DNA of 64,000 bases. Origin: Planctomycetes bacterium MalM25. Lineage in GTDB: Bacteria > Planctomycetota > Planctomycetia > Pirellulales > Lacipirellulaceae. Location of the stretch: positions 2,007,001 through 2,071,000 of the forward strand of contig CP036424.1 of assembly GCA_007745835.1 (NCBI GenBank), given 5' to 3'. Below, piece by piece: positions 20,235 to 64,000 of this stretch. A model generated the notes under the pieces. It saw nothing but the letters and a program-made list of their open reading frames with translations. It searched no databases and was not told where the DNA came from. Every line of letters starts with the position of its first letter. Position 1 is the first letter of the stretch. Both the position numbers and the translations under genes were made by a program.

Positions 20235-23200
20235 CTATGGCATAGCTGTGGTTAAGATCAGATTCTGTATGACTTCAGGCGTAGCGTGTCGGTCTCCTCT
20301 TTGATCGGCGCCCGTCATCCACCAGCAAAGCATGCCAGCGTCAGAGCAGTCGAACTTGTTCCGCTGAAACTCTACGACGCCGTCTCTTTCAGCGTAGAGC
20401 AGCTGGTCCCATAACCAACCCACATCAGAATCGGTATGGTTGCATGCCCAGTCCCAAGGACTCTTTGCTGTTTGGAGCAGTGTATTCTGATCGCCTATCT
20501 GATGCTCCTTGACACCGAAGCCAAGGATGTCAGTCCATTGAAAAAAATCTCCGCTGTCGTCGTTCGCTGGATGGTGCGACACGACATGCACATGCTCAAT
20601 ATTGGAACGCTGCGACCCGCGAAGAGCGAAGCCGATGATGTCTGGCTCGCCCGCCTCGATTATCCACAATGGGTCGTTGGCGGTAGACGCATCGATAGCT
20701 TTCCGCAGGTCTTCAACCGCGGCTTCCTGCTCCTGCCTACAGTTGTAGTGACGCACCAAATTCCTGTAAGGACCGAATCGAGCGAGCCCCTCTCGGCACA
20801 CTTTGTCCAGGACTTTCTGGCGGCGAAGCTCGTCAGATTTCGTGATGCGACTGCTAGGCCGCAGGTCGCATGAGTGTGAAAGATGAGTCAACCTATCCTG
20901 CAAGCCAGCCCTGCCAAGCAAGCCAAGCATGACCGCGGTGGCACCGATGTCGTCGGGATCAGGGGAATTGCCATCTACTACTATCGCCAGGCGACCCACG
21001 GGGGGCTTCAAGGGTGTCACGCGCTGTGCTGCATCATGGTCTTGAGGCGTATTGATTCTCCATTCAATATGGTGGTCGCCTGCCTGCATTGCGATCCTGT
21101 TCTTTGGCAAGTGTTTGGCATTGCCATTCCATACAATACCACTGATGTTCGGCGGAAGGCGTACCTCAGCGACCGAGTTCGCCGGGATCGTGAATTTCCA
21201 TGTCACCCGCTTTTTCTCTTGCTTCCAGGAACTCTTAACGGTGCCGTAAGGCGTCTTCATGGTCGCTGCGACCGACTCCAAATCTTGTGGGATGAACGGC
21301 TGAAGCAACAGTCGTCGAAACCCCGCTTCCTCAGGGTGGCAGCGGATGCCCGCCAGGTAGTTCAGCATCCAGGCGGTGGGGTGGTTCATGGCGTGGTGAT
21401 CAAGCGAACGCTGTGTTTGTCGAACCCTTGAGATGCCGATGAACCTTTCAAAGATCGTCGTGGCGTCGTAGTCACGTATGCTCTGCGCCACACCCGGGTA
21501 GTCGGGATTTTTGAGCATGCGCAGTGCCAGATCGACGTGGCCGTGCTCGGTGAGCTGAGGGTAGATGAAGTAGGACATAAAGCCGCCGTCAAACTTCGCC
21601 CCATTGTCCTCGTAGACCTTCGCCAACGACTTGGCGACGGCCTTCTCTTCAGCCGGATCGAACACGTCAAACGCCAAGGCCAGGCTGTCGTGCGTGCCGT
21701 TGCCCAGAGTCTGATCCTGCTCGTCGTAGTACGTCTCGCGGATCGACTTTCGGATGCCCTCGGCGAGGCGTCGACTCCATTGGGCATCGATTGAATGGCC
21801 GAGTGCCTCGGCCATCTGACCGAACCGATCCGCGGCCGCAAAGAAGTTTAGCGCAGCGATCAGCCGGTTGTCCGCTGGGGCACGGGGCACCTCTTGCGGG
21901 GCGGCGTGATCACCGTAGCGGTGAAGGCGTGGCAGCAACTTGTCGGACGCCTTCTCGAAGTACCTCAAGAACCGCCGCATCGCTTCGTAGTGATCGGCGG
22001 CGGTCTGCAGGTCGCCGTTCAGGCGGTAGCTGTGCCAGGCGATGAACAGAGGAGAAACAGCCCAAGTGAAGTCCCCCGCTGAGTTGGTGGCGCGCAGCCC
22101 GACTCCAACCCTGCCCGGAATGCCGTTCCGGTCCATTGGCGGTGTGTAGAAGAGCCGCACCTGCTGCCGGTAGAAGGACGCCGACTCCAAGGCTTGCATG
22201 CCGGTCGACCACGATGAATGCAGGTCGCCCCCCCACAGGCATTTCTCTCGGTGCGGGCAGTCCTCCAGCACGGAGTGCATGTTGTTGAGGTGCGTCTGGA
22301 CGCCCATACCGAAGATTCGATCAAGCAGGGGGTCGGACGATTCAAACGTCGCTTTGATCGGGGCGTCCGTGTGGACGACCAACCCCTTGATCTGCCCCGC
22401 GGTCGGCGGCTCGCTCAGGCCGTGAACCTCGGCGTACCGGAAGCCGTGGTAGCTGAAGTAGGGACGCCAGTCATGAGGCTTCCCATCGGCGATAATATGA
22501 TGATTCTGCGGCGAAGCGTGGCAGTTCCAGAACGAGTAGGGAACGTTATCGAGGCGGCGCCCCTCCTTGTCGAGCATCTCCGAGCAACGAACACGCAGGA
22601 CGGTCCCTGCTGGCTCGTGGAAGCGTAGGCCGACCCAACCACTGATGTTCTGGCCCAGGTCAACGATCCAGGTCTTCTCTCCGACGCGCCAGGTTCTAAC
22701 CGGATCGATCTCACGCACGACGCGGATCGGGGGCTGGTCTTGTGCGATCAACCGGGGCGACAGCGCCTCGACGGTCTGTACCGGCTCCCAGCCCGCGGGT
22801 GTCCCCGGCCTCTGCCATTCTGTGTGCCAATCTCGGTAGTCGATGTCGTCGCCGAGGAAGACGTTGGACCGTAAGACGCCCGACGGCTTCCATCGCCAGC
22901 CTTCGCTAGTCACGACATGGTCAAGCGTCCCATCCGCGTAGCGGACCTCCAGGTACGCACGCAAGCCTGGCTTGCCATACCGGTGGCGTGAGTGGGAAAA
23001 CCAGCGATCGTTGTTGTACCAACCATCCCCCAGCAGCACCGACAGGGCGTTGCTCCCCCGCCGCAGATTATTCGTCACGTCGAACACCGAGTAGTGTGCG
23101 AACTGTGGGTAGTCGGTTTGGCCGGGATCGAGCACGTGATCCCCCACCTTCTCGCCGTTGAGGTAGGGCTCGTTGTATCCCAGGCCGCACACGTATAGCC

Positions 23201-24236
23201 GGGCAGAAGTCGGCTGCTTGGTGACCTCGAAGTCTTTCTTGTACCAGGCCGCTCCGAGTGGGGCCCGGGGGGAGATCATCGCCTCTCCCAGGGGGGCCTC
23301 GCCGTGCTCGCACACAACTTTTGCCGGTGTTTTCCGCTGCCCCATTTTGGCGATCCAATCGTCGTCTGACTTGACGATCTGCTGGCTGCCGTCGGCGAAG
23401 ACTACCTGCATGCCGAAGGAGACGGGCGTTCCCGGGTCGCAATCGGTCAGGGTGATGCGAACCTCGTTTTCGGGCCGCAGGTAGAAACCGTAGTCTTTGT
23501 AGTTGATCGTCGGTGGGCCCTCCGGGCCGCTGAGTCCAGCTCGACCATTGACCTCGACCTGGATCGCTCCCTTCTTCACGTGGCTCCACCACGTGCCTGC
23601 GTAGACGACTTCCTTGTCGGGCAGTGAAAACTTGAGATGGTAGCTCGCGTCCTCTGCTTGGCTGGATTGCCTGTCCGCAGCGATCCAGTCGCCCATAACG
23701 TGAGGTGGTCCGCGTTCCACATCGATCTCTCGTGTGCAGGAGATCCACTCCGCGCCCTGCCAAGCCGCATCGTCCAAGAGCCCCGCGTCGAACCACGACG
23801 GTTCGGACCAAGGCGAGAGGTCGCCTTGGTCGTCCTGGATGCGGACACGCCAGTGGATGCGCTGCTTCGCCGAGAACGGCTTGCCGGCGTAAGGGATGGC
23901 GACTGATTCCGCAGCCCGCACCCAGCCGCTATCCCAGAAATCGGGTGCCGACAGCCGGGACGCTGTGCTGGCGGCCTGGATGCGATAGGCGCGTTGCGCT
24001 AGCCCCGCCCGGCCGCCCTCCAGCCGCCATGAGAGCATAGGGTCGGCGCGATCGACGGCGAGCGGCGTGACGCGCAGGTCGCACTTCAAACCCACCACCA
24101 CGGCGTGATCGCCAGAAGACGATGCGGGGGTGACTAAGAGGGCGAGTGCCAACGCCCCAACCAGGTTGCTAGCTGAATGCTTCAAGACGCCGGCCTTATT
24201 CTGGGAGTGATAGGGACCGCTTTCCCCGCTCTTCAT
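20235..24236 (-). CDS. GH78 alpha-L-rhamnosidase fused to a nucleoside-hydrolase-like C-terminal domain
   Basis: A 1333-residue exported protein. Residues from about 40 to 1075 follow the standard GH78 layout: Ig-like domain (LSWRLEGGRAGLAQRAYRI), CBM67-type region, N-domain with LLGDGWYNNDRW, and a six-hairpin catalytic domain whose motif is DCPHREKCLWGGD (about residues 640-652), with acidic residues at the expected spacing. From residue 1082 to the end is an extra domain beginning RLAIVVDGNSPDPDDIGA and later WIIEAGEPDIIGFAL. The D-x-D-D cluster resembles the nucleoside hydrolase fold. The rhamnosidase function is well supported; the C-terminal domain's activity is unknown. It is 13 bases downstream of the GH10-like gene. 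Confidence 0.9.
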   Translation of the reverse strand: MKSGESGPYHSQNKAGVLKHSASNLVGALALALLVTPASSSGDHAVVVGLKCDLRVTPLAVDRADPMLSWRLEGGRAGLAQRAYRIQAASTASRLSAPDFWDSGWVRAAESVAIPYAGKPFSAKQRIHWRVRIQDDQGDLSPWSEPSWFDAGLLDDAAWQGAEWISCTREIDVERGPPHVMGDWIAADRQSSQAEDASYHLKFSLPDKEVVYAGTWWSHVKKGAIQVEVNGRAGLSGPEGPPTINYKDYGFYLRPENEVRITLTDCDPGTPVSFGMQVVFADGSQQIVKSDDDWIAKMGQRKTPAKVVCEHGEAPLGEAMISPRAPLGAAWYKKDFEVTKQPTSARLYVCGLGYNEPYLNGEKVGDHVLDPGQTDYPQFAHYSVFDVTNNLRRGSNALSVLLGDGWYNNDRWFSHSRHRYGKPGLRAYLEVRYADGTLDHVVTSEGWRWKPSGVLRSNVFLGDDIDYRDWHTEWQRPGTPAGWEPVQTVEALSPRLIAQDQPPIRVVREIDPVRTWRVGEKTWIVDLGQNISGWVGLRFHEPAGTVLRVRCSEMLDKEGRRLDNVPYSFWNCHASPQNHHIIADGKPHDWRPYFSYHGFRYAEVHGLSEPPTAGQIKGLVVHTDAPIKATFESSDPLLDRIFGMGVQTHLNNMHSVLEDCPHREKCLWGGDLHSSWSTGMQALESASFYRQQVRLFYTPPMDRNGIPGRVGVGLRATNSAGDFTWAVSPLFIAWHSYRLNGDLQTAADHYEAMRRFLRYFEKASDKLLPRLHRYGDHAAPQEVPRAPADNRLIAALNFFAAADRFGQMAEALGHSIDAQWSRRLAEGIRKSIRETYYDEQDQTLGNGTHDSLALAFDVFDPAEEKAVAKSLAKVYEDNGAKFDGGFMSYFIYPQLTEHGHVDLALRMLKNPDYPGVAQSIRDYDATTIFERFIGISRVRQTQRSLDHHAMNHPTAWMLNYLAGIRCHPEEAGFRRLLLQPFIPQDLESVAATMKTPYGTVKSSWKQEKKRVTWKFTIPANSVAEVRLPPNISGIVWNGNAKHLPKNRIAMQAGDHHIEWRINTPQDHDAAQRVTPLKPPVGRLAIVVDGNSPDPDDIGATAVMLGLLGRAGLQDRLTHLSHSCDLRPSSRITKSDELRRQKVLDKVCREGLARFGPYRNLVRHYNCRQEQEAAVEDLRKAIDASTANDPLWIIEAGEPDIIGFALRGSQRSNIEHVHVVSHHPANDDSGDFFQWTDILGFGVKEHQIGDQNTLLQTAKSPWDWACNHTDSDVGWLWDQLLYAERDGVVEFQRNKFDCSDAGMLCWWMTGADQRGDRHATPEVIQNLILTTAMP

Positions 24237-29474: not shown

Positions 29475-31244
29475 TCAAAAGTCGAACGCATAGCCCACGC
29501 GTGACAGTGCGTAGCGAGGTGAGCATGCGCACGTGGACAGAATGAGAAGCAGCTGACCTAAGCTGCTGACCTCTGGTACGGTGGTAGAGCTGACTGAACC
29601 GAAGTTACCGAAGCCTGCATGCCAGAGTGCATAATCGCCTTGGTCAACGGTGCCTGATCCGTCACCGGTTCCAGGGGCCAGCGAGGATTCATCGGCCCCC
29701 AGGTGGTCCCTCCAGACGGTGTAGTCGGCCGCGTTGACGATCCCATCACCGTTGAAGTCACCGCCCACAGCAAGGAACAAGCCGGTCACGCCCACGTTGT
29801 CGACCCACAGATCGTGACCTCCCGATCCATCCCCCTCTCCGCCCGAGAAGGCCAGCAAGAAATCGACCGTTCCGCCGGCTTCGAGGGTGTTGTCGGCGAG
29901 CCCCAGCAAGGAGTGGCTGATATCGTCATGGGCGCTGTTGTCCCAGGCTCCGGCGACGTGGCTGATTTCTTGTTCTTGAGAGGTGTAGAGAACTCCGTTG
30001 GTAAGGTCTCCTGATACCACGCTCAGCTCATATGTTCTTGCCGCTTTCGGGCGGAAGGCGTAGGCGTCGAAGTGGAAGCCGTCGAGGTCGATATCGGTTG
30101 TCCCGTTGTTGGTTAGGGTGAACGTAATCGTGCCGGCGGTGGTGGCGTTGGAGAGCTCGAGGTTCTGGTTATTCGTGTCCGCAACAGACGTGTCGGCCGA
30201 TGGCGAGACGGCGTGCGAGCCCCAGTCGCCGTCAACGCTGGCGCCCCGTTCGTCCGTCGTGTGCCAGTTGATGCCTTCGGAGGTGGTGACCGCGGAACCT
30301 GAAACCCCCGCCGTGGCGTACGACGCCGAAGGGCTCGAACCGCTGTTCCAGGTGTCCCAGCCGGCTAGCAATGAGCCGTAGGCAGGGTCTGGTTCTGTAG
30401 GAAACTCTATGTTGGGATCGACTGAAGCATGGCTAACGAAAATCATCGCTTCCTCAAGCACCTCTTTCGCCCCAACGTAGATTCCCCACCGAAACCGCGT
30501 GTCGGAATTATCTCCAGGATCCGAATTGCGGGTGTATTGCCCTGTCGTGAATGGCTGTGGCTGGTCGCCAAAGTACACTTCGTAGTCGAGCCCGTTGTCG
30601 CGGATTCGGATGTCAAACGGCTGGCCAATAGCGTTCTCGACAAGCGTTTGAGTCTTTGCCTGTCCAGGCAGTGGGCGCCTATGAGTTACTGAAACCCTGC
30701 CATCCTGGTTCATGTTGAGGTGGACCGACCAGGCTTCGTCGTCCTGATCTTTCGCCTGAAAGATTGCAGCGTTGATCGGCTTGATAATAGTGTATCGTGC
30801 AACCCAGTCATGCCACACTCCATCGCTAACGTTCCAGCCAGTGCTGGCGTCAAAGGCTTCGACTCGGGCAGCCAGCGGTCGATCGTTGCGAACGTTTTCT
30901 TCGCCGGGAAACAACCGGAAGACTTGTGTGGCACCGTCTGTTTGATACCAGCGGCTCCAATTGTCGAAACTGCTTTCAGGGAGCGTGCTGTTGGCGAGTG
31001 TGTGAAGACGCAACCCGTCGTCAATGCCTAGTGCTCCGTTAAGGCCCCCTTCGACAGCCGCGTTATTCACATCGATGATCGTCCCGCTGTATCCGTTTGT
31101 GATGTCGTTACGGATGTCATCAAAGGGCGGATTGACACCCGGCCCCTCGGTGTAGAGCGACACCTGCCCGTAAGCCGAAGGGATACAGCATGCAATTGCA
31201 AGCAAGGCCGTGCTGGAAAGTTCTGATGATCTCACAGGTTGCAT
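29475..31244 (-). CDS. Exported jelly-roll protein with dockerin-like module
   Basis: About 589 residues from the ATG at 31244; the signal peptide is SSTALLAIACCIPSAYG. Residues of about 20-320 form a beta-rich domain with a Trp-containing core (WHDWVARYTIIKPINAAIFQ, then AWSVHLNMNQDG), reminiscent of jelly-roll polysaccharide lyases such as heparin-lyase-like or alginate-lyase-like families; this assignment is tentative. The C-terminal third is the duplicated segment shared with the next gene, which ends in the dockerin-like calcium motif GDFNGDGIVNAADYTVWRD and its partner. The tail lacks a clear PEP-CTERM Arg cluster but has a short hydrophobic stretch after VPEVSS. Confidence 0.75.
   Translation of the reverse strand: MQPVRSSELSSTALLAIACCIPSAYGQVSLYTEGPGVNPPFDDIRNDITNGYSGTIIDVNNAAVEGGLNGALGIDDGLRLHTLANSTLPESSFDNWSRWYQTDGATQVFRLFPGEENVRNDRPLAARVEAFDASTGWNVSDGVWHDWVARYTIIKPINAAIFQAKDQDDEAWSVHLNMNQDGRVSVTHRRPLPGQAKTQTLVENAIGQPFDIRIRDNGLDYEVYFGDQPQPFTTGQYTRNSDPGDNSDTRFRWGIYVGAKEVLEEAMIFVSHASVDPNIEFPTEPDPAYGSLLAGWDTWNSGSSPSASYATAGVSGSAVTTSEGINWHTTDERGASVDGDWGSHAVSPSADTSVADTNNQNLELSNATTAGTITFTLTNNGTTDIDLDGFHFDAYAFRPKAARTYELSVVSGDLTNGVLYTSQEQEISHVAGAWDNSAHDDISHSLLGLADNTLEAGGTVDFLLAFSGGEGDGSGGHDLWVDNVGVTGLFLAVGGDFNGDGIVNAADYTVWRDHLGADESSLAPGTGDGSGTVDQGDYALWHAGFGNFGSVSSTTVPEVSSLGQLLLILSTCACSPRYALSRVGYAFDF
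29622..30386. repeat. 765-bp direct repeat, copy 1
   Basis: Matches 31442-32206 over 765 bases at an offset of 1820. One difference was found: T at 30099 versus C at 31919, which does not change the encoded Thr. The segment encodes a beta-rich domain plus the dockerin-like motif in the same frame in both genes. Confidence 0.93.
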
Positions 31245-33622
31245 ACCCTGTTTGATGGTTGCGTTGGTTCTACTGGCGTATCTGATTCTTGCTGCAGGCT
31301 TAGGGATGTGGAGCCGTGAATATTCCTGCGCCGGCTTGTCGCGAGCATTAGCGTCAGGCCGCAGAAGCAAAGTGACGTCGGTTCGGGGATTGTTGAAAAG
31401 CTTAGCGGTGTGATGCTGTTCGCTCCCCCAAAATACGCCGTCCAGAGTGCATAATCGCCTTGGTCAACGGTGCCTGATCCGTCACCGGTTCCAGGGGCCA
31501 GCGAGGATTCATCGGCCCCCAGGTGGTCCCTCCAGACGGTGTAGTCGGCCGCGTTGACGATCCCATCACCGTTGAAGTCACCGCCCACAGCAAGGAACAA
31601 GCCGGTCACGCCCACGTTGTCGACCCACAGATCGTGACCTCCCGATCCATCCCCCTCTCCGCCCGAGAAGGCCAGCAAGAAATCGACCGTTCCGCCGGCT
31701 TCGAGGGTGTTGTCGGCGAGCCCCAGCAAGGAGTGGCTGATATCGTCATGGGCGCTGTTGTCCCAGGCTCCGGCGACGTGGCTGATTTCTTGTTCTTGAG
31801 AGGTGTAGAGAACTCCGTTGGTAAGGTCTCCTGATACCACGCTCAGCTCATATGTTCTTGCCGCTTTCGGGCGGAAGGCGTAGGCGTCGAAGTGGAAGCC
31901 GTCGAGGTCGATATCGGTCGTCCCGTTGTTGGTTAGGGTGAACGTAATCGTGCCGGCGGTGGTGGCGTTGGAGAGCTCGAGGTTCTGGTTATTCGTGTCC
32001 GCAACAGACGTGTCGGCCGATGGCGAGACGGCGTGCGAGCCCCAGTCGCCGTCAACGCTGGCGCCCCGTTCGTCCGTCGTGTGCCAGTTGATGCCTTCGG
32101 AGGTGGTGACCGCGGAACCTGAAACCCCCGCCGTGGCGTACGACGCCGAAGGGCTCGAACCGCTGTTCCAGGTGTCCCAGCCGGCTAGCAATGAGCCGTA
32201 GGCAGGCGGCTCGGCGAGCTCAAAGCCCGAAAGAACGCTGATCGATAGCGGGGGGAGTGAGATAGAGCCAGGGGTCGATGCGACAAGGTTCAGCCCACTG
32301 TCGCCGAGATCGAACGTTGGGAAATCGTTTACGTCACTGAACTGCAGTGCCTCATGGACATAGGTGCCGTTGTAGATGGCGCTGTCGATGTTGACGTCGA
32401 ATGGAGCACTAACCGGCGACTTGTTTACCGCGTACACCACAAGCTCACCATCTCGATAGGCCGCCTGCGCCGACGCGGCGTCGAGGCCCGGAACGATCTG
32501 GCTGGAAGTCACCTGCCCCGAAACCAACTGGCTGTCAAAGAAGACATTTCGCAGAATGTCGTACGCCGCGCCGCGTGTGGTTTTCACGTGCTTGGGGTTT
32601 GCGGACTTGTCGTACACGATCATCGGATCATGATTGTGGATCTGAAAATACTCGGACGAGTCGAATAGATCAGGGCGATCGATCAGCCCCAAGTACGTGT
32701 CCGATAGCCCTAGAACGCTGATGGCGTTGCTGCCGCCGTCGATGCTCCACTCTGAGAGCCAGATCGGCTTGCCCGGGAATTGGGTTCGGATGTCCTCGGC
32801 GGTCTGAATCATCTGAGTGCGAGCGTCAAGGACTTCCTGCAATCCGGCAGTCGAGTCTCCAGGGCGGATGTACTTGTGCAGTGTTACCGCGTCGTAGTAG
32901 GTCTGATCGGCCGCCATGGCGGCGTTCCACGGCCCGTGGACGGAACCCCCGGTTCTCCAAGTCACTGGTACCGAGACCTGGATGCTCGGGTCTTCCGCTT
33001 TCAGGGCCACCGAATGCGCCTGGGCCACACCCACGTAGAGCTCTGGGGTCGCAACGGCGTTGCTGCGTTGAGAGCGCCAGAAAGTCTCATTGCCCAGTTC
33101 GATTCGATTGACGTCGAAGCCTTTCGCGGTCCGGTCTTGAAGCCGGGCGACCCCTTTCTCCGGACTGTCGTAGTTGATGTTCCAGGTGTGGAGCACATCG
33201 AATCCGAGATTGTCGTGGAGCGTCTTGAACCCTTCAAATCCATATCTTAGCTGGGGTACATTCTCGACAGCCCCTCGATAGATTGTTTCGTAGTCGTCGT
33301 AGATTCGGCGACCATCGACCTCCCAGTCGTAGTAGTTCGCCCACACGCCGTGTGGGAATCTTAGTGATGGTGGAGACCAGCCGGTGATCAGCGCTTGGCC
33401 GTCTGAGTCGTCGTATCCATCGAGCCCGTACTGGTTTTCAGGGAAGTTGGTGTTGAGCCCTAGCAGCTTGTTGTTGAACGGGACTGCGTCGCTGCTGATG
33501 ATGTGGATCGCGGCGCTTTGCGAGCCGACGTTCTCGTAGGGATAGTCGATCGCGGTAGCAGTTGTCGCAAGATAAAGGTAACCGAGTGCAGCCAAGGGCT
33601 GGCGGCAAGAGCTGGTTTGCAT
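31232..33622 (-). CDS. Clan GH-A glycoside hydrolase (arabinofuranosidase-like) with dockerin-like and PEP-CTERM ends
   Basis: About 796 residues from the ATG at 33622. After a signal peptide (about 1-24), a TIM barrel shows the clan GH-A catalytic pair: acid/base Glu179 in IELGNE and nucleophile Glu291 in IWLSEW. The sequence style recalls GH51, GH39 or GH79 enzymes acting on arabinose, xylose or uronic acid residues. A beta-sandwich and then the 765-bp duplicated module follow. A tail starts with IPEPTSL, a PEP-CTERM-like sorting signal followed by a hydrophobic stretch and Arg residues. The gene end overlaps the start of the next by 13 bases. Confidence 0.82.
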   Translation of the reverse strand: MQTSSCRQPLAALGYLYLATTATAIDYPYENVGSQSAAIHIISSDAVPFNNKLLGLNTNFPENQYGLDGYDDSDGQALITGWSPPSLRFPHGVWANYYDWEVDGRRIYDDYETIYRGAVENVPQLRYGFEGFKTLHDNLGFDVLHTWNINYDSPEKGVARLQDRTAKGFDVNRIELGNETFWRSQRSNAVATPELYVGVAQAHSVALKAEDPSIQVSVPVTWRTGGSVHGPWNAAMAADQTYYDAVTLHKYIRPGDSTAGLQEVLDARTQMIQTAEDIRTQFPGKPIWLSEWSIDGGSNAISVLGLSDTYLGLIDRPDLFDSSEYFQIHNHDPMIVYDKSANPKHVKTTRGAAYDILRNVFFDSQLVSGQVTSSQIVPGLDAASAQAAYRDGELVVYAVNKSPVSAPFDVNIDSAIYNGTYVHEALQFSDVNDFPTFDLGDSGLNLVASTPGSISLPPLSISVLSGFELAEPPAYGSLLAGWDTWNSGSSPSASYATAGVSGSAVTTSEGINWHTTDERGASVDGDWGSHAVSPSADTSVADTNNQNLELSNATTAGTITFTLTNNGTTDIDLDGFHFDAYAFRPKAARTYELSVVSGDLTNGVLYTSQEQEISHVAGAWDNSAHDDISHSLLGLADNTLEAGGTVDFLLAFSGGEGDGSGGHDLWVDNVGVTGLFLAVGGDFNGDGIVNAADYTVWRDHLGADESSLAPGTGDGSGTVDQGDYALWTAYFGGANSITPLSFSTIPEPTSLCFCGLTLMLATSRRRNIHGSTSLSLQQESDTPVEPTQPSNRVCNL
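31442..32206. repeat. 765-bp direct repeat, copy 2
   Basis: Near-identical partner of 29622-30386, located at the C-terminal end of the GH-A glycosidase gene. The repeat begins and ends abruptly: outside the boundary (CCAGAGTGC at one end, GGCAGG at the other) the two genes are unrelated. Confidence 0.93.
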
Positions 33623-33664
33623 CAACGCTTTCCCAAGCAACGGCAATTGTCCACGCATGTAAGA

Positions 33665-33695
33665 GACCCGGTGCGGCACCCTTCCGCACCGGGTC
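33665..33695 (-). terminator. Perfect 12-bp stem hairpin after a PEP-CTERM gene
   Basis: Arms 33665-33676 and 33684-33695 are perfectly complementary around a 7-base loop. It lies 28 bases beyond the stop of the minus-strand gene at 33723 and before the next start. No T-run follows, so it may be a Rho-assisted terminator or an mRNA end-stabilising structure. Confidence 0.5.
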
Positions 33696-33722
33696 ATAGA
33701 TTGAATACGAGCGCGACGCGGC

Positions 33723-41277: not shown

Positions 41278-41502
41278 ATTCTTGATCCTGGTGATGTTCC
41301 CGATGTCGCGCCAAGGGCGTAGGCCAATCCGCAGTCGCAGCCTGGTCCCACTTAAGATCACTTCGCGCGGATGTGGGCAGACCGCCCACTAAAGAATACG
41401 TTCCGGTAGGTAATAACTGGACAAACAAAAAACAGTCGCCAGCGTCAGCAAGCAAGGCTGTCGGTCAACGTCGTCTTATTCAAGAAAGTAGTCCGACGTC
41501 CC

Positions 41503-42795
41503 GTTCAACAAGGTTGTCATACGATATCGACCACTAGTCGTCGGTCGATATCGTTCCTGAAGCTGAGAATGGTCACGTCCGATTGTCACGAATCCTGCAC
41601 GGTTCATCAACGGCGCATGGTTGGGAAGCGTGAAGCCACGCAACGTCTCGATAGCAGTTGTTCTTTAGCTGGTCAGGCCGCCGTTCGTTCGTAGTGCTTC
41701 AGCACGCCACCGAGCCACTGGCGGCAGACGATCTCCTCGCCCTCGCCAGGCGGGTCGTCGACCTCGGGCCAGACACCGAGCAACGGCTTGTTGTCTTTCC
41801 GCTGGTGAGGACGGCAGGCGTGATAATAATCGCAATAGGAAGAGACAAGATGGTCGAAGTGACCGAGGCCGAAGACGATGAACCGGTTCAGGCACTCAGC
41901 CCGAATCGAGCCGATCCAGCGCTCGACGAAGGCGTTCTGATTCGGCGCTCGTGGCGCTGTGGGTTCAACCGAAGTGCCGTTGTCGGCAAAGACCTGATCG
42001 AATCGTTTGGAGTACTTGAAGTCGCGGTCTCGGATGAGGTAACGGATCGGCAGCTCCATCCCACGGGCCTGCTCGAGCATCGACTCCGTTTGCTCGGTTA
42101 CCCACTTGTCGTCGGCCTTGAGCGTCGCGGGCGAGCAGATGACCCGTCGCGAGTTGACGTGCAGGAAAGCCAGCACGTAGGCCTGCCGCAATCCGGTGCT
42201 TGTCATGACCATCTTGCTGAAAAAATCACACTGCCAGAGGGTCTCGGCGTGGGTCTTGATGAAGTCGTCCCAGGTGCCTGGTCCTCGCTTCGGGCCCGGG
42301 TGGATACCTTCTTCCTTGAGGATTGTGCGGACCGTTGTGCGGCCACAGCAGCGGATCCGCAACTTGCGTAATTCGCCCACAATCCGACCGTACCCCCACT
42401 GGTTTTGTCTCGCGAGCCTGACGACGATCTGGCGGATGGTCTCCGACGTTCCTTTCCGGCCCATCTTCTTCGCCGGCGGCTTCCCCTGACTTCTCCGCTC
42501 CAGCCAGCGGCGGTAGGTTCGTGGGTGCACGATGGAGACCAAATTCAGCACATCTGAGCGCATGCCGTCACCCAACTCTAGCAGCCGCTGCCGCTCCTCA
42601 TCCTTAAGGAAGATGCGACTCTGCGGGACGGGAGCCCGAGTCAGCTCCAGCTCGGCCTTCAAGAAGAGGATGTGCCGTCGGAGTTGCTCTTCGTTCGAGC
42701 GGGCGAAGAGAAAGAAGAGTGGCGAGAACCAGGGCGGCATCGGGATGATAACCTCTCGAATCTCAGGCGTTTTCGGGGTGACAACCTTCCTGAAC
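41503..42795 (-). mobile_element. rve-type insertion sequence, copy 1
   Basis: About 1.29 kb bounded by imperfect inverted repeats: GTTCAACAAGGTTGTCA (41503-41519) and TGACAACCTTCCTGAAC (42779-42795). It carries one transposase gene and about 170 bp of conserved noncoding sequence at the left end, including CGATTGTCACGAATC. The outer boundaries are approximate because similarity between the two copies continues somewhat past the right repeat. No target duplication was identified. Confidence 0.8.
41673..42740 (-). CDS. rve/DDE transposase, copy 1
   Basis: A 355-residue transposase with an integrase catalytic core. The N-terminal helical region (about 1-110) includes a helix-turn-helix with TYRRWLERR, and the catalytic core has the acidic residues in WQCDFFSK, VFADNG and NAFVERW, consistent with a D,D,E triad. 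It ends in a typical HACRPHQRKDNKPL segment. The family looks related to IS3/IS481-type elements but is encoded in a single frame. It is intact and close in sequence to copy 2, so the element has been active recently. Confidence 0.9.
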   Translation of the reverse strand: MPPWFSPLFFLFARSNEEQLRRHILFLKAELELTRAPVPQSRIFLKDEERQRLLELGDGMRSDVLNLVSIVHPRTYRRWLERRSQGKPPAKKMGRKGTSETIRQIVVRLARQNQWGYGRIVGELRKLRIRCCGRTTVRTILKEEGIHPGPKRGPGTWDDFIKTHAETLWQCDFFSKMVMTSTGLRQAYVLAFLHVNSRRVICSPATLKADDKWVTEQTESMLEQARGMELPIRYLIRDRDFKYSKRFDQVFADNGTSVEPTAPRAPNQNAFVERWIGSIRAECLNRFIVFGLGHFDHLVSSYCDYYHACRPHQRKDNKPLLGVWPEVDDPPGEGEEIVCRQWLGGVLKHYERTAA

Positions 42796-42976
42796 CCCTG
42801 CTGTCGCTCGATTCTCGTCGCCCGATCTGGGTCCGCAAACGTCTACTGGTTTGCGCGGCGAAAAATGAGGTCCGTTGCTAATGCTTGCCAATCGTTGCTA
42901 TCCGTTGCAAGCCTCCCAAACCAGTAGTAGTCTTCGTAAAGCGTTGTAGACGAGTGGGTTGCGGCAAGGCCCTTTT

Positions 42977-43169: not shown

Positions 43170-43311
43170 GTGCCACGTCTCTTCCACACGCCGCCCAAGT
43201 ACCGGCGGCACAAGTCCACCCAGCAAGCCATCGTCGAGTTCGGTGGCAAGCGGATCTACCTGGGTCCCTACGGCTCCGCCAAGAGCCACGAGCGGTACCA
43301 GCAGGCGTCCC
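43170..43311 (+). pseudogene. Truncated tyrosine recombinase (5' end only)
   Basis: From a GTG, the frame encodes about 47 residues starting VPRLFHTPPKYRRHKSTQQA and continuing through GGKRIYLGPYGSAKSHERYQ. This is the N-terminal DNA-binding segment seen in planctomycete site-specific integrases. The frame then runs into the left end of IS copy 2 and stops. The catalytic domain is absent from the window, so the gene is dead. Its position next to a tRNA-like 3' half fits an integrase gene at the end of an integrated element. Confidence 0.65.
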
Positions 43312-44605
43312 GTTCAACAAGGTTGTCACACGATATCGACCGATGATTGTCGGTCTATGTCGATGTCGAAGCCGTAAACGAAGGTAATCGATTGTCACGA
43401 ATCATCCACGTCTTACCAGCGGCGCATGGCCGAGCAGCGTGAAGCCACGTAACGCCTCGATAGCAGTTGTCGCTGTAGCTGGTCACGCCGCCGTTCGTTC
43501 GTAGTGCTTCAACACGCCGCCAAGCCATTGCCGGCAAACGATCTCTTCGTCTTCGTTCGGCGGATCATCGACCTCCGGCCAGACGCCGAGCAGCGGCTTG
43601 TTCTCCTTCCGCTGGTGTGGCCTCGCCTGATGATAAAAGTCGCAATAGCAAGTAACGATATGGTCGAAGTGACCGAGGCCGAACACGATGAATCGGTTCA
43701 GGCACTCACCCCGAATCGATCCGATCCAGCGTTCCACGAACGCGTTCTGATTCGGCGCTCGCGGCGCCGTCGGCTCGACCGAGACGCCCGCGTCGGCGAA
43801 GACCTCGTCGAACCGCTTGGAGTACTTGAAGTCGCGATCCCGAACGAGGTAGCTGACCGGCAGCTCCATCCCGCGTGCTTGCTCCAGCATCGATTTGGCT
43901 TGCTCGGTGACCCATTCGTCGTCGGCCTTGAGCGTCGCTGGGGAGCAGATGACCCGACGCGAATTGACGTGGAGGAACGCCAGCACGTAGGCCTGTCGCA
44001 GACCGGTGCTCGTCATGACCATCTTCGAGAAGAAATCACATTGCCAGAGACTCTCGGCGTGGATCTTGATGAACTCGTCCCAGGTCCCGGGACCACGCTT
44101 GGGCCCCGGATGGATGCCTTCTTCCTTGAGGATGGTGCGGACCGTTGTGCGGCCAACGCAGCGGATGCGGAGCTTCCGCAACTCGCCAACGATGCGGGCG
44201 TAGCCCCATTGGTTCTGCTTGGCGAGCCGGACAACGATCTGGCGGATCGTCTCGGAGGTTCCTTTGCGGCCCATCTTCTTGGCAGGCGGCTTGCCCTGGC
44301 TTCTCCGCTCCAGCCAGCGGCGGTAAGTTCGGGGGTGGACTATCGACACGAGCTTCAATGCGTCTGAGCCGATGCCTTCCCCCAGCTCCAGCAGTCGCTG
44401 CCGCTCCTCATCCTTGAGGAAGATGCGGCTCTGTGGCACGCGAGCCCGGGTCATCTCCAGCTCGGCCTTGAGGAAGAGGATCTGCCGCCGGAGTTGCTCC
44501 TCATTCGAGCGCGCGAACAGGAAGAACAGCGGGCTGAACCATGGCGGCATCGTGTCGGCTCTCCCGCGATTCTCAGGCGTTTTCGAGGTGACAACCTTTC
44601 CGCAC
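43312..44605 (-). mobile_element. rve-type insertion sequence, copy 2
   Basis: About 1.29 kb with left repeat GTTCAACAAGGTTGTCA (43312-43328) and right repeat TGACAACCTTTCCGCAC (44589-44605). It has the same layout as copy 1 and is inserted in the integrase remnant. About 200 bp past the right end of both copies are also related, so the duplicated unit is larger than the IS. Confidence 0.8.
43483..44550 (-). CDS. rve/DDE transposase, copy 2
   Basis: A 355-residue transposase differing from copy 1 at a modest number of scattered positions, for example VFADAGVSVEP in place of VFADNGTSVEP. The N (of the D-N pair) next to the second catalytic Asp is Ala here, but the catalytic acids in WQCDFFSK, VFAD and FVERW are kept. 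The frame is intact. Confidence 0.9.
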   Translation of the reverse strand: MPPWFSPLFFLFARSNEEQLRRQILFLKAELEMTRARVPQSRIFLKDEERQRLLELGEGIGSDALKLVSIVHPRTYRRWLERRSQGKPPAKKMGRKGTSETIRQIVVRLAKQNQWGYARIVGELRKLRIRCVGRTTVRTILKEEGIHPGPKRGPGTWDEFIKIHAESLWQCDFFSKMVMTSTGLRQAYVLAFLHVNSRRVICSPATLKADDEWVTEQAKSMLEQARGMELPVSYLVRDRDFKYSKRFDEVFADAGVSVEPTAPRAPNQNAFVERWIGSIRGECLNRFIVFGLGHFDHIVTCYCDFYHQARPHQRKENKPLLGVWPEVDDPPNEDEEIVCRQWLGGVLKHYERTAA

Positions 44606-44780
44606 CCCTGCTATCGCCTCGATTCTCGCGGGTCGATTCGTGTTGGCAAGCATCCCCGCTTGCGAATGCCTACGTTTGCTAACGTTTGCCAATATTTGCC
44701 GTCGTTTGCAAGCGAATAAGCGGGGATGTATTCTTCGTAAGTCCTTGTCAGAGAGAGTGTTCGGGAAACGGGCTTCTGGT

Positions 44781-46071: not shown

Positions 46072-47115
46072 GGCCTTGCTTCCTAACCCCAGATGTTGAG
46101 AGGCATACCGATTGCGACGAAGGCGTTGAGTATCTTGCAGCGTAGGGCGAGTTCGGTGGCTTGGTTGCGGGGTTCTCGGTTCTTCAGCCGGTCGCCGAAG
46201 GCACCCTTCAGCCGGCTCATGGCCGTCTCGGCGAGGCTGCGTCGGTGATAGCCGATCGCCTCCTTCCAGCTCTTCTTGCCGTCGCGGCGGATCTGCCTGA
46301 GGCACTCGTCGCGTTCGATCGGGTCGGCCGACGAGTTGCCGTGCTGACGGATCACCGCGTTCTTCCGCGGCGGGATGATCTGGTGGATACGCTCTTCTTC
46401 GAGGTGCTCGCGGACGGCCCACGTGTCGTACGCCCCGTCGCCGTAGAACGTCTGGACCTCTTGCTCGACTTGTTCCAGCAGCGGCTTCACCGGCGTGGCG
46501 TCATGCATGCTCGACTCGGTCAGCAGCTGAGCGACGATTGCGTGGCTCGCCGGATCGACCGCCAGGTGGACCTTGCGGAACGTGCGACGCTTATCGACCC
46601 CGTGCTTCTTGCGATGCCACTCGCCGTCTCCGAAGACCTTCAGGCCCGTGCTATCGACCACCACGTCGATCGGCCCCTTCGCTGGGTCGATGTCGATCGA
46701 GACCTTCAGCTTCGCGGCACGCTTCACGAGGCTCGTATGGTGCGGGATCGCGACGCCCGCGTCGAGGAGCTTAGCCAACGCTCGTCCGAAGCCCTCGGTC
46801 TGCCGGTAAGGCAGGCGGAACAGCTCGCGGATCGTCAGCAGGGTCTCGATCGCCACGTCGCTGTAGGTGAACGGGCGGCCGTTCTTCTTCGCCTCGTTCT
46901 CGTGCTCCCAAGCGTCCACGACTTCTTCAGAGAAGTAGAACGTGAAGTCGCCCCGGTTCACGAGTGCCTCGTTGTACCGCTTCCAGTTCTTGACCTCGTA
47001 ACGCTTCTTACGCGGCTCCGCTGCGCCTGCTGGCATCGTTCGCTCCGTCAGATGAGAGATGGGACTCCGTCCACGGCGATCTACGCGGCGTTTCAAGGGG
47101 TTGTTCAGCAAGGCC
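46072..47115 (-). mobile_element. IS5-family (IS903-type) insertion sequence, copy 1
   Basis: A 1044-bp element ending in GGCCTTGCT at each end as inverted repeats, with similarity continuing to an ACCCC block at about base 15-19. The 9-bp target duplication and the GGCCTTGCTGA-like end match the IS903 group of the IS5 family. One intact transposase gene occupies most of it. Confidence 0.92.
46083..47036 (-). CDS. IS5-family transposase
   Basis: About 317 residues from the ATG at 47036, which lies just inside the IS end; a longer upstream frame would extend outside the element and is rejected. DDE residues are visible in VVVDSTGLKVFG, in YGDGAYDT and in RRSLAETAMSRLK. The N-terminal KNWKRYNEALVNRGDFTFYF is typical of IS903-type transposases. 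Intact. Confidence 0.93.
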   Translation of the reverse strand: MPAGAAEPRKKRYEVKNWKRYNEALVNRGDFTFYFSEEVVDAWEHENEAKKNGRPFTYSDVAIETLLTIRELFRLPYRQTEGFGRALAKLLDAGVAIPHHTSLVKRAAKLKVSIDIDPAKGPIDVVVDSTGLKVFGDGEWHRKKHGVDKRRTFRKVHLAVDPASHAIVAQLLTESSMHDATPVKPLLEQVEQEVQTFYGDGAYDTWAVREHLEEERIHQIIPPRKNAVIRQHGNSSADPIERDECLRQIRRDGKKSWKEAIGYHRRSLAETAMSRLKGAFGDRLKNREPRNQATELALRCKILNAFVAIGMPLNIWG

Positions 47116-51657: not shown

Positions 51658-52693
51658 GGCCTTGCTGAACTAATCGACGAGTAGCGTCGTAGATCGGCCC
51701 GGACGGAGTCCTCTTTTCTCAGACGGAGCGAACGATGGCCGCTAGCAAGGCGAAGAAGAAGTCGTACCGGGTGACGAACTGGCGGGAGTACAACGAGTCG
51801 CTTGTGTGCCGGGGCGACATCACGTACTGGTTCAGCGGCGAGGTGCTCGCCGTTTGGGAGCACGACAACGCCGAGGCTCGTCGCGGACACCCGTTCGTCT
51901 ACAGCGATCTGGCGATTGAGACGCTGCTGACGCTGCGAGAACTCTTCCGCTTGCCCTACCGCCAGACCGAAGGGTTGGGTCGGGCGTTGGCGAAGCTGAT
52001 GGGGGTTGATGTGGCGATCCCGCACCACACGAGCTTGGTGAAGCGGGCCGCCAAGCTCGACATCGACACCCAGCTGGCCGAGGTGAAAGGCCCGATCGAC
52101 GTGGTGGTCGATAGCACGGGCCTGAAGGTCTTCGGCGAGGGCGAGTGGAAGGTCCGTCAGCACGGCGTGGGCAAGCGTCGCGATTGGCGGAAGGTCCACT
52201 TCGCGATCGACCCCAACTCACACGCGATCCTCGCCGAACTGATGACCGGATCCGGCACGCACGACGCGACGGCGGCGAAGCCGCTGTTGGAAGACATCGA
52301 GCAACAGATCGAGACGTTCTACGGCGACGGAGCGTACGACACGTGGGTCTTGCGGGATCACCTGCAAGGCGAGTCGATCCACCAGATCATCCCGCCGCAG
52401 AAGAACGCGGTGATCAGGCAGCACGGCAACTCGAAGAAGGACCCGCTGGAACGCGACGAGTGCGTGCGGCAGATCCGTCGTGACGGCAAGGCGGCGTGGA
52501 AGGAAGCAATCGGCTACCACCGGCGAAGCCTCGCCGAGACCGGCATGAGCCGGCTGAAGATGACCTTCGGCGATCGCCTCAAGAATCGTGAGCCGCCCAA
52601 TCAGAAGACCGAAGTTGCTCTCCGAACCAAGATCCTTAACGCCTTCGTCTCTATCGGCATGCCTCTCTCGTTGTGGATTTAGTCAGCAAGGCC
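51658..52693 (+). mobile_element. IS5-family (IS903-type) insertion sequence, copy 2
   Basis: A 1036-bp element with inverted ends GGCCTTGCTGA and a 9-bp duplication. It is related to copy 1 but clearly diverged in sequence and in opposite orientation. It carries one intact transposase gene. Confidence 0.92.
51735..52682 (+). CDS. IS5-family transposase
   Basis: A 315-residue DDE transposase. Catalytic regions are VVVDSTGLKVFG, YGDGAYDT and RRSLAETGMSRLK. It is similar along its whole length to the transposase at 46083-47036 but differs at many positions, so the two elements are different members of the group. Intact. Confidence 0.93.
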   Translation: MAASKAKKKSYRVTNWREYNESLVCRGDITYWFSGEVLAVWEHDNAEARRGHPFVYSDLAIETLLTLRELFRLPYRQTEGLGRALAKLMGVDVAIPHHTSLVKRAAKLDIDTQLAEVKGPIDVVVDSTGLKVFGEGEWKVRQHGVGKRRDWRKVHFAIDPNSHAILAELMTGSGTHDATAAKPLLEDIEQQIETFYGDGAYDTWVLRDHLQGESIHQIIPPQKNAVIRQHGNSKKDPLERDECVRQIRRDGKAAWKEAIGYHRRSLAETGMSRLKMTFGDRLKNREPPNQKTEVALRTKILNAFVSIGMPLSLWI

Positions 52694-63043: not shown

Positions 63044-63082
63044 TTAAAATCTACCACGATCGTGCTATTCAACAAGCGTCCT

Positions 63083-63366
63083 ATTCAACAAGGTTGTCAC
63101 TTCATATCGACCGGCAATCGTTCGGTCGGTATCGGTCGTCGAGCAGCGAACGAAGTCACCCGATTGTCACGAATCATGCACGGTTCATCAACGGCGCATG
63201 GCTTAAAAGCGTGTAGGCACGCAACGACCCGATAGCCAGTTGTCTCTTCGGCTCGTCAGGCCGCTTTCCGTTCGTAGTGCTTCAACACACCGCCGAGCCA
63301 CTGCCGGCAGACGATCTCTTCATCCTCACTTGGCGGATCATCGACCTCGGGCCAGACGCCGAGCAG
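63083..63366 (-). mobile_element. Partial rve-type IS (left end and transposase 3' end)
   Basis: Starts with ATTCAACAAGGTTGTCA and has the conserved left noncoding part. It carries the last 37 or so codons of the transposase (stop at 63256), then breaks at 63366 where another left-end copy begins. A further TATTCAACAAG fragment lies just to the left, at 63065. Confidence 0.8.
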
Positions 63367-63372
63367 CGTCCT

Positions 63373-63490
63373 GTTCAACAAGGTTGTCCGAGTAGGCACC
63401 TCGTTGAATGAAGTTTGTTTGTCCGATTTCGAGTGCTTCGCCGATGAGTCGATTGTCGCGAATCAGCCCCGATCTGTCACCGGCCGTCCC
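63373..63490 (-). mobile_element. Short rve-type IS left-end fragment
   Basis: Begins GTTCAACAAGGTTGTCC and has a diverged form of the left noncoding region, with CGATTGTCGCGAATC near 63450. It contains no transposase sequence and ends at the next left-end copy. Confidence 0.7.
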
Positions 63491-64000
63491 GTTCAACAAG
63501 GTTGTCACTTGATATCGACCGACACTCGTCGGGCGATATCGCTCTTGAAGCTGTGATCGAAGCTGCCCGATTGTCACGAGTCATGCACGGTTCATCAATG
63601 GCGCATGGCTTAAATGCGTGAAGGCACGCAACGACTCGATGGCCAGTTGTCTCGTCAGCTCGTCAGGCCGCTTTGCGTTCGTAGTGCTTCAAGACACCGC
63701 CGAGCCACTGCCGACAGACGATCTCTTCATCCTCACTTGGCGGATCATCGACCTCGGGCCAGACGCCGAGCAGAGGCTTGTTCTCCTTCCTCTGGTGAGG
63801 GCGACATGCGTGATAATAATCGCAGTAGGAAGAGACGATATGGTCGAGGTGTGCCAAGCCGAAGACGATGAATCGGTTAAGGCACTCACCCCGAATCGAT
63901 CCGATCCAGCGTTCCACGAACGCGTTCTGATTCAGCGCTCGCGGAGCCGTTGGCTCGACGGAGACACCCGCGTCGGCGAAGACCTTGTCGAAGCGTTTGG
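63491..64000 (-). mobile_element. rve-type IS, runs off the window edge
   Basis: Left repeat GTTCAACAAGGTTGTCA (63491-63507) followed by the normal left noncoding sequence and the 3' part of a transposase gene. The element continues beyond position 64000, so its completeness cannot be judged. Confidence 0.85.
63663..64000 (-). CDS. rve/DDE transposase, partial (5' end outside the window)
   Basis: The last 112 or so codons of the same transposase family as at 41673 and 43483, in one open frame to the window edge. VFADAGVSVEP and NAFVERWIGS with the last catalytic Glu are visible. It is closer to copy 2 in these segments. Confidence 0.88.
   Translation of the reverse strand, partial: KRFDKVFADAGVSVEPTAPRALNQNAFVERWIGSIRGECLNRFIVFGLAHLDHIVSSYCDYYHACRPHQRKENKPLLGVWPEVDDPPSEDEEIVCRQWLGGVLKHYERKAA

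Follow-up and report, generated by a model that had tools for sequence, protein, structure and literature searches.

Recurrent gene conversion and module swapping as the probable source of a near-identical C-terminal module in two adjacent genes of a planctomycete polysaccharide locus

The window analysed here, a stretch of 64,000 nucleotides from Planctomycetes bacterium MalM25 (genome G000), contains two neighbouring genes, A and B, in the company of a GH78 rhamnosidase, a GH10 protein and sulfatases. Both genes encode an N-terminal domain followed by a module, a dockerin-like tail and an end that resembles a PEP-CTERM signal when read by eye (Table 1). As the start of gene B we chose the ATG at 31244, the mechanical open reading frame being longer; with this start, the short overlap of the two genes resembles that of translationally coupled genes and may reflect such coupling.

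Table 1. Positions in the window of the two genes, their domains and the repeat that they share.
Feature	Position	Strand	Description
Gene A, 821 aa	31232..33697	-	N-terminal domain, module, dockerin-like tail, PEP-CTERM-like end (by eye)
Gene B, 589 aa	29475..31244	-	N-terminal domain, module, dockerin-like tail, degenerate PEP-CTERM-like end (by eye)
Overlap, 13 nt	31232..31244	-	End of A and chosen start of B
N-terminal domain of A	32207..33697	-	One copy in genome; orthologs in G008, CALDEW, CALFUT
N-terminal domain of B	30387..31244	-	One copy in genome; orthologs in G008, G013, G025, CALDEW
Repeat copy in gene A, 255 codons	31442..32206	-	Partner of 29622-30386, sharp edges
Repeat copy in gene B, 255 codons	29622..30386	-	99.87% identical to 31442-32206, sharp edges
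Single difference	30099 (partner 31919)		Silent; Thr codon ACG in gene A (residue 593), ACA in gene B
Jelly-roll module of A, 206 aa	31589..32206	-	AlphaFold pLDDT 92.7, structural matches
Jelly-roll module of B	29769..30386	-	Protein identical to that of A
Dockerin-like segment of A within repeat	31442..31588	-	Dockerin_1 20.7 bits (cut-off 22.9); ADYTVW type
Dockerin-like segment of B within repeat	29622..29768	-	Dockerin_1 18.3 bits (cut-off 22.9); ADYTVW type

The N-terminal domain of A is 71-78% identical in amino acids among four genomes (G000, G008 and the MAG records CALDEW and CALFUT, the latter two also labelled G353 and G354), and has weaker relatives in G008 (36%), G321 (41%) and G025 (46%). 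That of B is 66-75% identical among five genomes: G000, G008, CALDEW, G013, which belongs to another genus, and G025, Bythopirellula polymerisocia Pla144 of the family Lacipirellulaceae. A Pfam search assigned neither domain to a family. The domain of A has a weak match (E 0.007) to heparanase, an enzyme of family GH79; in NCBIfam, gene A gives one match far under the cut-off (13.6 versus 580 bits) and gene B none. PDB sequence searches with the B domain yielded no usable match, and its model, built from only three sequences, has a mean pLDDT of only 30, for which reason no fold search was made.

In a class-wide survey of 297 genomes, G000 among them, A was found in three genomes including G000 (one partial, 41%), B in six including G000 (two distant, 42 and 47%; one doubtful, interrupted by stops, E 0.001) and the module in three including G000. 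The locus of G025, a genome outside that draw, came from a DNA search of 97 relatives. Three genomes of the same genus as MalM25 (G001-G003) have no match to the module protein or to either N-terminal domain, so that no sister strain with copies still unconverted was found. A scan of named genomes returned 20 loci with matches; among them were orthologs of A from CALDEW and CALFUT, one of B from CALDEW, and Verrucomicrobiota and Pontiellaceae records whose modules are more remote. The record CAKZVF holds a probable A ortholog, in which only 25 residues precede the module before the contig ends. This patchy occurrence suggests horizontal transfer of the genes.

The C-terminal parts of A and B form a pair of direct repeats in which 764 of 765 positions are identical (ungapped comparison at an offset of 1820). 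Identity drops at once on both sides: 100-base blocks lying wholly beyond the edges agree at just 20-31 positions. Near identity over a tract with sharp edges, between copies that are not allelic, is one of the marks by which gene conversion is recognized. Over about 189 synonymous sites, dS is about 0.005. The modules of A and B are identical at 120 of 121 fourfold sites, as against 23/87, 30/82 and 31/79 in three comparisons with modules of other genomes, so that codon constraint or selection on the protein does not explain the identity of the repeats, which instead points to a very recent common origin of the two copies. The original prediction had described a near-identical 765-bp pair with a single silent difference, joining genes with unrelated N-terminal domains, and had proposed very recent duplication or ongoing gene conversion. 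The description proved exact (the best blastp match between the two N-terminal domains covers 9 residues, with E 6), and the identity values above support the proposal. It had, however, called the duplicated part a dockerin-like module, a name that suits some 49 C-terminal codons; the other 206 of the 255 specify a jelly-roll module like those of CBM and MAM domains.

This module was modelled from 20 sequences as a jelly-roll beta-sandwich. Its structural matches include a meprin MAM domain (Z 12.3), CBM61 (2xom, Z 11.2) and CBM4-2 (2y6k, Z 10.8), with Z values of about 9-11 against CBM61, CBM4-2 and CBM35. Foldseek gave weak matches (best E 5.5e-4, TM-scores under 0.5). Although the module has the fold of CBM61, CBM4, CBM35 and MAM domains, it differs from them in its low sequence identity (6-15% among the 50 structural matches listed) and in having neither a Pfam family at E 1 nor a PDB sequence match. 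The model makes a carbohydrate-binding role likely and not more than that, because MAM domains match at least equally well.

A protein search of the MalM25 genome found the module in just two copies, those of A and B. Elsewhere it also occurs as a standalone small protein with a PEP-CTERM-like end, which adjoins A in G008 (L042 11047-11838) and is found in Roseibacillus and two MAGs (L084, L085 and L088, L085 being cut by the contig start). In Pontiellaceae B12227 (L075 2458-6813), a frame of 1,452 aa carries two tandem modules, 65% identical to each other, with a tail unlike the planctomycete ones. The GH78 protein of the window (20235-24236) is 61% identical, over its residues 1080-1328, to the N-terminal part of a Roseibacillus protein (L078 47-2182) in which that domain is followed by the same jelly-roll module. 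From this arrangement, the C-terminal domain of the GH78 protein would also be a partner of the module elsewhere; its 250 C-terminal residues have no convincing Pfam match.

Neither dockerin-like segment reaches the gathering cut-off of Dockerin type I (PF00404). In the seven orthologs scanned with the same profile, two tails pass (L073 with 28.9 and L070 with 26.7 bits), L067 scores 16.1 and the other four have no match; since these two tails pass, the various tails look like variants of one domain family. The edge of the repeat falls inside the second half of the dockerin-like segment (at ALW), and A and B consequently differ in their last residues and, as judged by eye, in their PEP-CTERM-like ends. 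The PEP-CTERM profile (PF07589) has no match in A or B at E 0.1, the resemblance being one seen by eye only, and of the seven orthologs scanned only G008_A passes it (21.5 versus a cut-off of 20.7). The end of gene B (29475-29621) looks by eye like a decayed PEP-CTERM signal, with VPEV present and the terminal arginine cluster absent, unlike that of A.

Which event produced the pair can be approached through the orthologs. The module follows the catalytic part in the B orthologs of G008, G013, G025 and CALDEW and in the A orthologs of G008, CALDEW and CALFUT, which makes it most likely that A and B each possessed one when the copying took place. We therefore regard the overwriting of one module by the other as the most likely history of the A-B pair, rather than a first acquisition. 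It is unlikely that one of the genes lacked the module and gained it from its neighbour by a single recent segmental duplication. The near identity and adjacency of the copies, the presence of only two of them in G000 and the A-like gene of G025 (46% aa), which ends without a module, would all fit such a gain. Yet it leaves unexplained why the module stands at the same place in B orthologs of four genomes and in the A orthologs (G008, CALDEW, CALFUT and, over its short stretch, CAKZVF), why the linkers that precede the module in B and in G025_B look alike (FPTEP...YG, by eye), and why A and B keep different dockerin and PEP-CTERM-like ends, as if each already had a tail. The linkers before the module, again read by eye, are compatible with both directions of copying. 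A search for the donor was likewise equivocal: of the positions that distinguish G008_A from G008_B, G000 shares 83 with A and 64 with B, with no clean breakpoint.

Replacement rather than gain is also in keeping with the way in which modules group. They mostly cluster by genome and not by gene. The module of G025_B is 85-92% identical in nucleotides to three other modules of G025, as against 67-68% to the B modules of G000 and G008, and that of G013_B belongs to a subtype different from its orthologs, with 45% amino acid identity to G000_B and 91% nucleotide identity to its own neighbours. The A and B modules of G008, on the other hand, are not homogenized (67% of nucleotides, 35/82 fourfold sites equal). 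AU tests rejected a gene-wise grouping of the modules both with G000 (p 1.4e-24, 16 of the 34 modules) and without it (p 7e-4 for protein and 2e-81 for DNA, 14 modules). These sets omit the G013 modules, the remaining members of subtypes II and III and the majority of the verrucomicrobial modules, so that G013_B, which conflicts with orthology, did not contribute to the rejection; CAKZVF_A was counted in the A set on its 25 residues alone.

Several relatives bear traces of comparable events. Within genomes, the proportion of equal fourfold sites descends from 127/127 (G013 x1-x2) through 108/114 (G025 x-z), 95/111 (G013 B-x1), 89/108 (G025 B-z) and 69/108 (G025 B-PLa) to 62/97 (CALDEW A-B), a range that indicates the same process at several ages. 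In G013, a tract of 1,528 bp contains 6 mismatches (99.6% identity), and 60-nt windows outside it agree at 37-72%. G025_z changes its affinity at the module: over the 522 nt before it, it has 29 differences from y and 213/519 from x, whereas inside the module it has 15/621 differences from x and 296/588 from y. It is a chimera of the body of one paralog and the module of another. The module shuffling envisaged in the original prediction therefore has counterparts in relatives (the G025_z chimera, the subtype switch of G013_B and the G013 tract), whereas its idea that shuffling gave the window genes their anchor does not fit the A-B pair, which is probably a replacement since orthologs of both genes already carry the module at that place.

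In G025, the module occurs in four consecutive genes, in a fifth about 39 kb further on and in the B ortholog (L044 5325-14300, L045 7971-9863, L046 3536-5251); these six genes comprise three module subtypes, each gene having a tail of the dockerin-like kind and, by eye, a PEP-CTERM-like end, and the fifth is the chimera of two others. In G013, transposase-like frames, recognized by eye, adjoin the homogenized genes (L067 9659-10321 and 17865-19295).

The tracts in relatives also bear on the quality of the sequence. A near-identical repeat of 765 bp exceeds the length of short reads, and one copy could have been duplicated or falsely corrected to the other during assembly. We hold such an artefact to be quite improbable: the genome is a single contig of 4.72 Mb, both copies lie in open frames between different flanks appropriate to each gene, one difference persists between them, and similar tracts are present in G013 and G025, the latter with older, clearly diverged copies as well.

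Taken as a whole, we have good confidence in recurrent gene conversion, accompanied by the swapping of modules within a polysaccharide locus; the A-B pair would be a very young case of it. A and B would be neighbouring secreted proteins, probably enzymes, of a locus for a sulfated rhamnose-rich polysaccharide. Before the copying, each would have carried a jelly-roll (CBM/MAM-like) module of its own, with a dockerin-like tail behind it. Then, recently, homologous recombination in the form of gene conversion, presumably RecA-dependent, would have replaced the module of one gene, along with the greater part of its dockerin, by the copy of the other, the differing ends of A and B remaining outside the 765-bp tract. 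The module would bind glycan and the tail would address the protein to the cell surface. The same process would recur in relatives, swap modules between genes and keep modules, and perhaps tails, alike within each genome. Known cases of gene conversion and concerted evolution likewise show sharp-edged tracts of near identity, clustering within genomes against the orthology of the flanks and mosaics of several ages. The difference is that here it would act not on whole paralogs but on a C-terminal module common to genes with unrelated N-terminal domains.

The dockerin-like tails offer a second view of the locus. Their DNA has matches at no fewer than 38 other places in G000 (40 of 140 candidates scored). 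Tail motifs were counted genome-wide with degenerate DNA patterns; the counts are matches and not genes, as one tail can hold two of them (seen for FxDIxPFI and VLGDAF), and the control with reversed patterns gave 0, except for 1 match in G025 (FxDIxPFI run) and 2 in G353 (VLGDAF run). The ADYTVW motif, to which the tails of A and B belong, has 81 matches in G000, 118 in G001, 107 in G002, 58 in G003 and 103 in G013, as against 0 in G008 and 1 in G025. GxDFLxxxQ has 64 matches in G008 and 73 in G025, with 2, 4, 3, 6 and 2 in G000, G001, G002, G003 and G013, respectively; these two counts leave out G353 and G354. FxDIxPFI reaches 82 in G353 (CALDEW), with 0 in G000, G008 and G013 and 1 each in G025 and G354, and VLGDAF reaches 77 in G354 (CALFUT), with 0 in G000 and G025, 1 each in G008 and G013 and 2 in G353. 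Among 43 genomes of the family, ADYTVW has at least 45 matches in 10, 7-16 in 2 and 0-4 in 31. Judging from these counts, the dockerin-like tail is typed per genome, and the orthologs of A and B bear the local type.

Tail alignments agree in the main. For six of the eight A and B tails, the scores against other genes in the same genome exceed those against every ortholog from another genome, the exceptions being G008_B and CALDEW_A, which prefer an ortholog with the same tail type. The comparators all came from fetched loci (17 for G000, 4 for G008, 2 for G013, 3 for G025 and 4 for G353), with a bias in G000, where 15 of the 17 are from loci found by repeat similarity, and in G353, where they were chosen by motif. 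When the G000 comparators are restricted to the two chosen purely for their position, the A tail continues to match its own genome better (118 and 123 versus at most 67), whereas the B tail reaches 118 and 114 versus 140 for G013_B, which has the same tail type; the count then becomes five of eight.

The tails of A and B also weigh on where the copying took place. Because both genes are unmatched in the three same-genus genomes and patchy in the class (3/297 and 6/297), the block could have been imported as a unit by horizontal transfer, already homogenized in another genome. We judge this very unlikely, given that the tails are of the ADYTVW type of the host, with its 81 motif matches in G000, and that no donor was seen; with host-type tails, an import would need a source with the same tail type or would have to precede the copying. 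Such an import contradicts only the place of the conversion and not the conversion itself. Finally, strong purifying selection on protein or RNA as the force keeping two old copies alike is extremely improbable, since, although the protein segments are identical, so are 120/121 fourfold sites in G000 versus 23-31 of 79-87 between genomes, and one repeat edge cuts the dockerin-like segment.

Alongside gene conversion with module swapping, a broader and more speculative scenario may be considered, which we advance tentatively, as a possibility that we think doubtful. In this part of the planctomycetes, the private tail of each genome could be the address tag for a single putative surface receptor, and glycan enzymes that move between genomes could be re-tagged by recombination through the C-terminal module, the 765-bp tract being a very young exchange of this kind. 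Vertical drift of all tails together with the receptor would look similar. A parallel is found in clostridial cellulosomes, whose dockerins are described as typed by species, one dockerin type likewise recurring in many genes per genome (PMC5748583). The duplicated motif resembling a calcium loop at the C-terminus, seen here by eye, is also shared with the type I dockerins of cellulosomes. The present case departs from cellulosomes in that six genomes have no Pfam cohesin match, that PEP-CTERM-like ends occur in some genomes and that the A and B copies fall below the Pfam cut-off. Closer at hand, a cohesin/dockerin ‘planctosome’ has been proposed for the Nemodlikiaceae (PMC6461901), another group of planctomycetes. 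It similarly involves secreted enzymes bearing dockerins, but cohesins are described for it and its enzymes are peptidases, whereas we deal with a glycan locus and found no Pfam cohesin in the six genomes. The cohesin search (PF00963, no match at E 0.01 in these six genomes) is weak evidence, because the control detected cohesin in only 2 of 14 well-known genomes, 1 of them above the cut-off, and a diverged cohesin would escape the profile.

Gene conversion between paralogs is in itself ordinary. Less so are an exchangeable module in genes with unrelated catalytic parts and an adjoining tail that is typed per genome while orthologs elsewhere bear other tails. In the open-licence literature we found no report of such module homogenization, or of genome-typed tails, in these bacteria. 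The combination of such a module and tail provides a natural experiment for finding the binding partner of planctomycete dockerin-like tails, for which the Pfam cohesin search of six genomes gave no candidate, as well as for learning how mobile enzymes are fitted to the surface system of a new host.

As to what the enzymes act upon, the gene content of the locus and of its counterparts would make a sulfated rhamnose-rich glycan such as ulvan the likeliest substrate. Loci for the utilization of ulvan or rhamnose-glucuronan likewise combine sulfatases and GH78, as in the window, BNR_4, as in the G008 locus, and GH106, as in the G025 locus. The BNR_4 protein of G008 matches an L-rhamnose-alpha-1,4-D-glucuronate lyase (E 2e-47) and, more weakly, ulvan lyases. 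The difference from those loci lies in A and B themselves, whose N-terminal domains are without a family match in Pfam.

Further repeats lie elsewhere in the window. The stretches 41497-42817 and 43306-44628, and also 63077-64000, are paralogous at 80-89% identity, one pair extending over 1,333 columns at 82.8%. An inverted pair of about 1 kb, at 46098-47085 and 51688-52667, is 76.5% identical.
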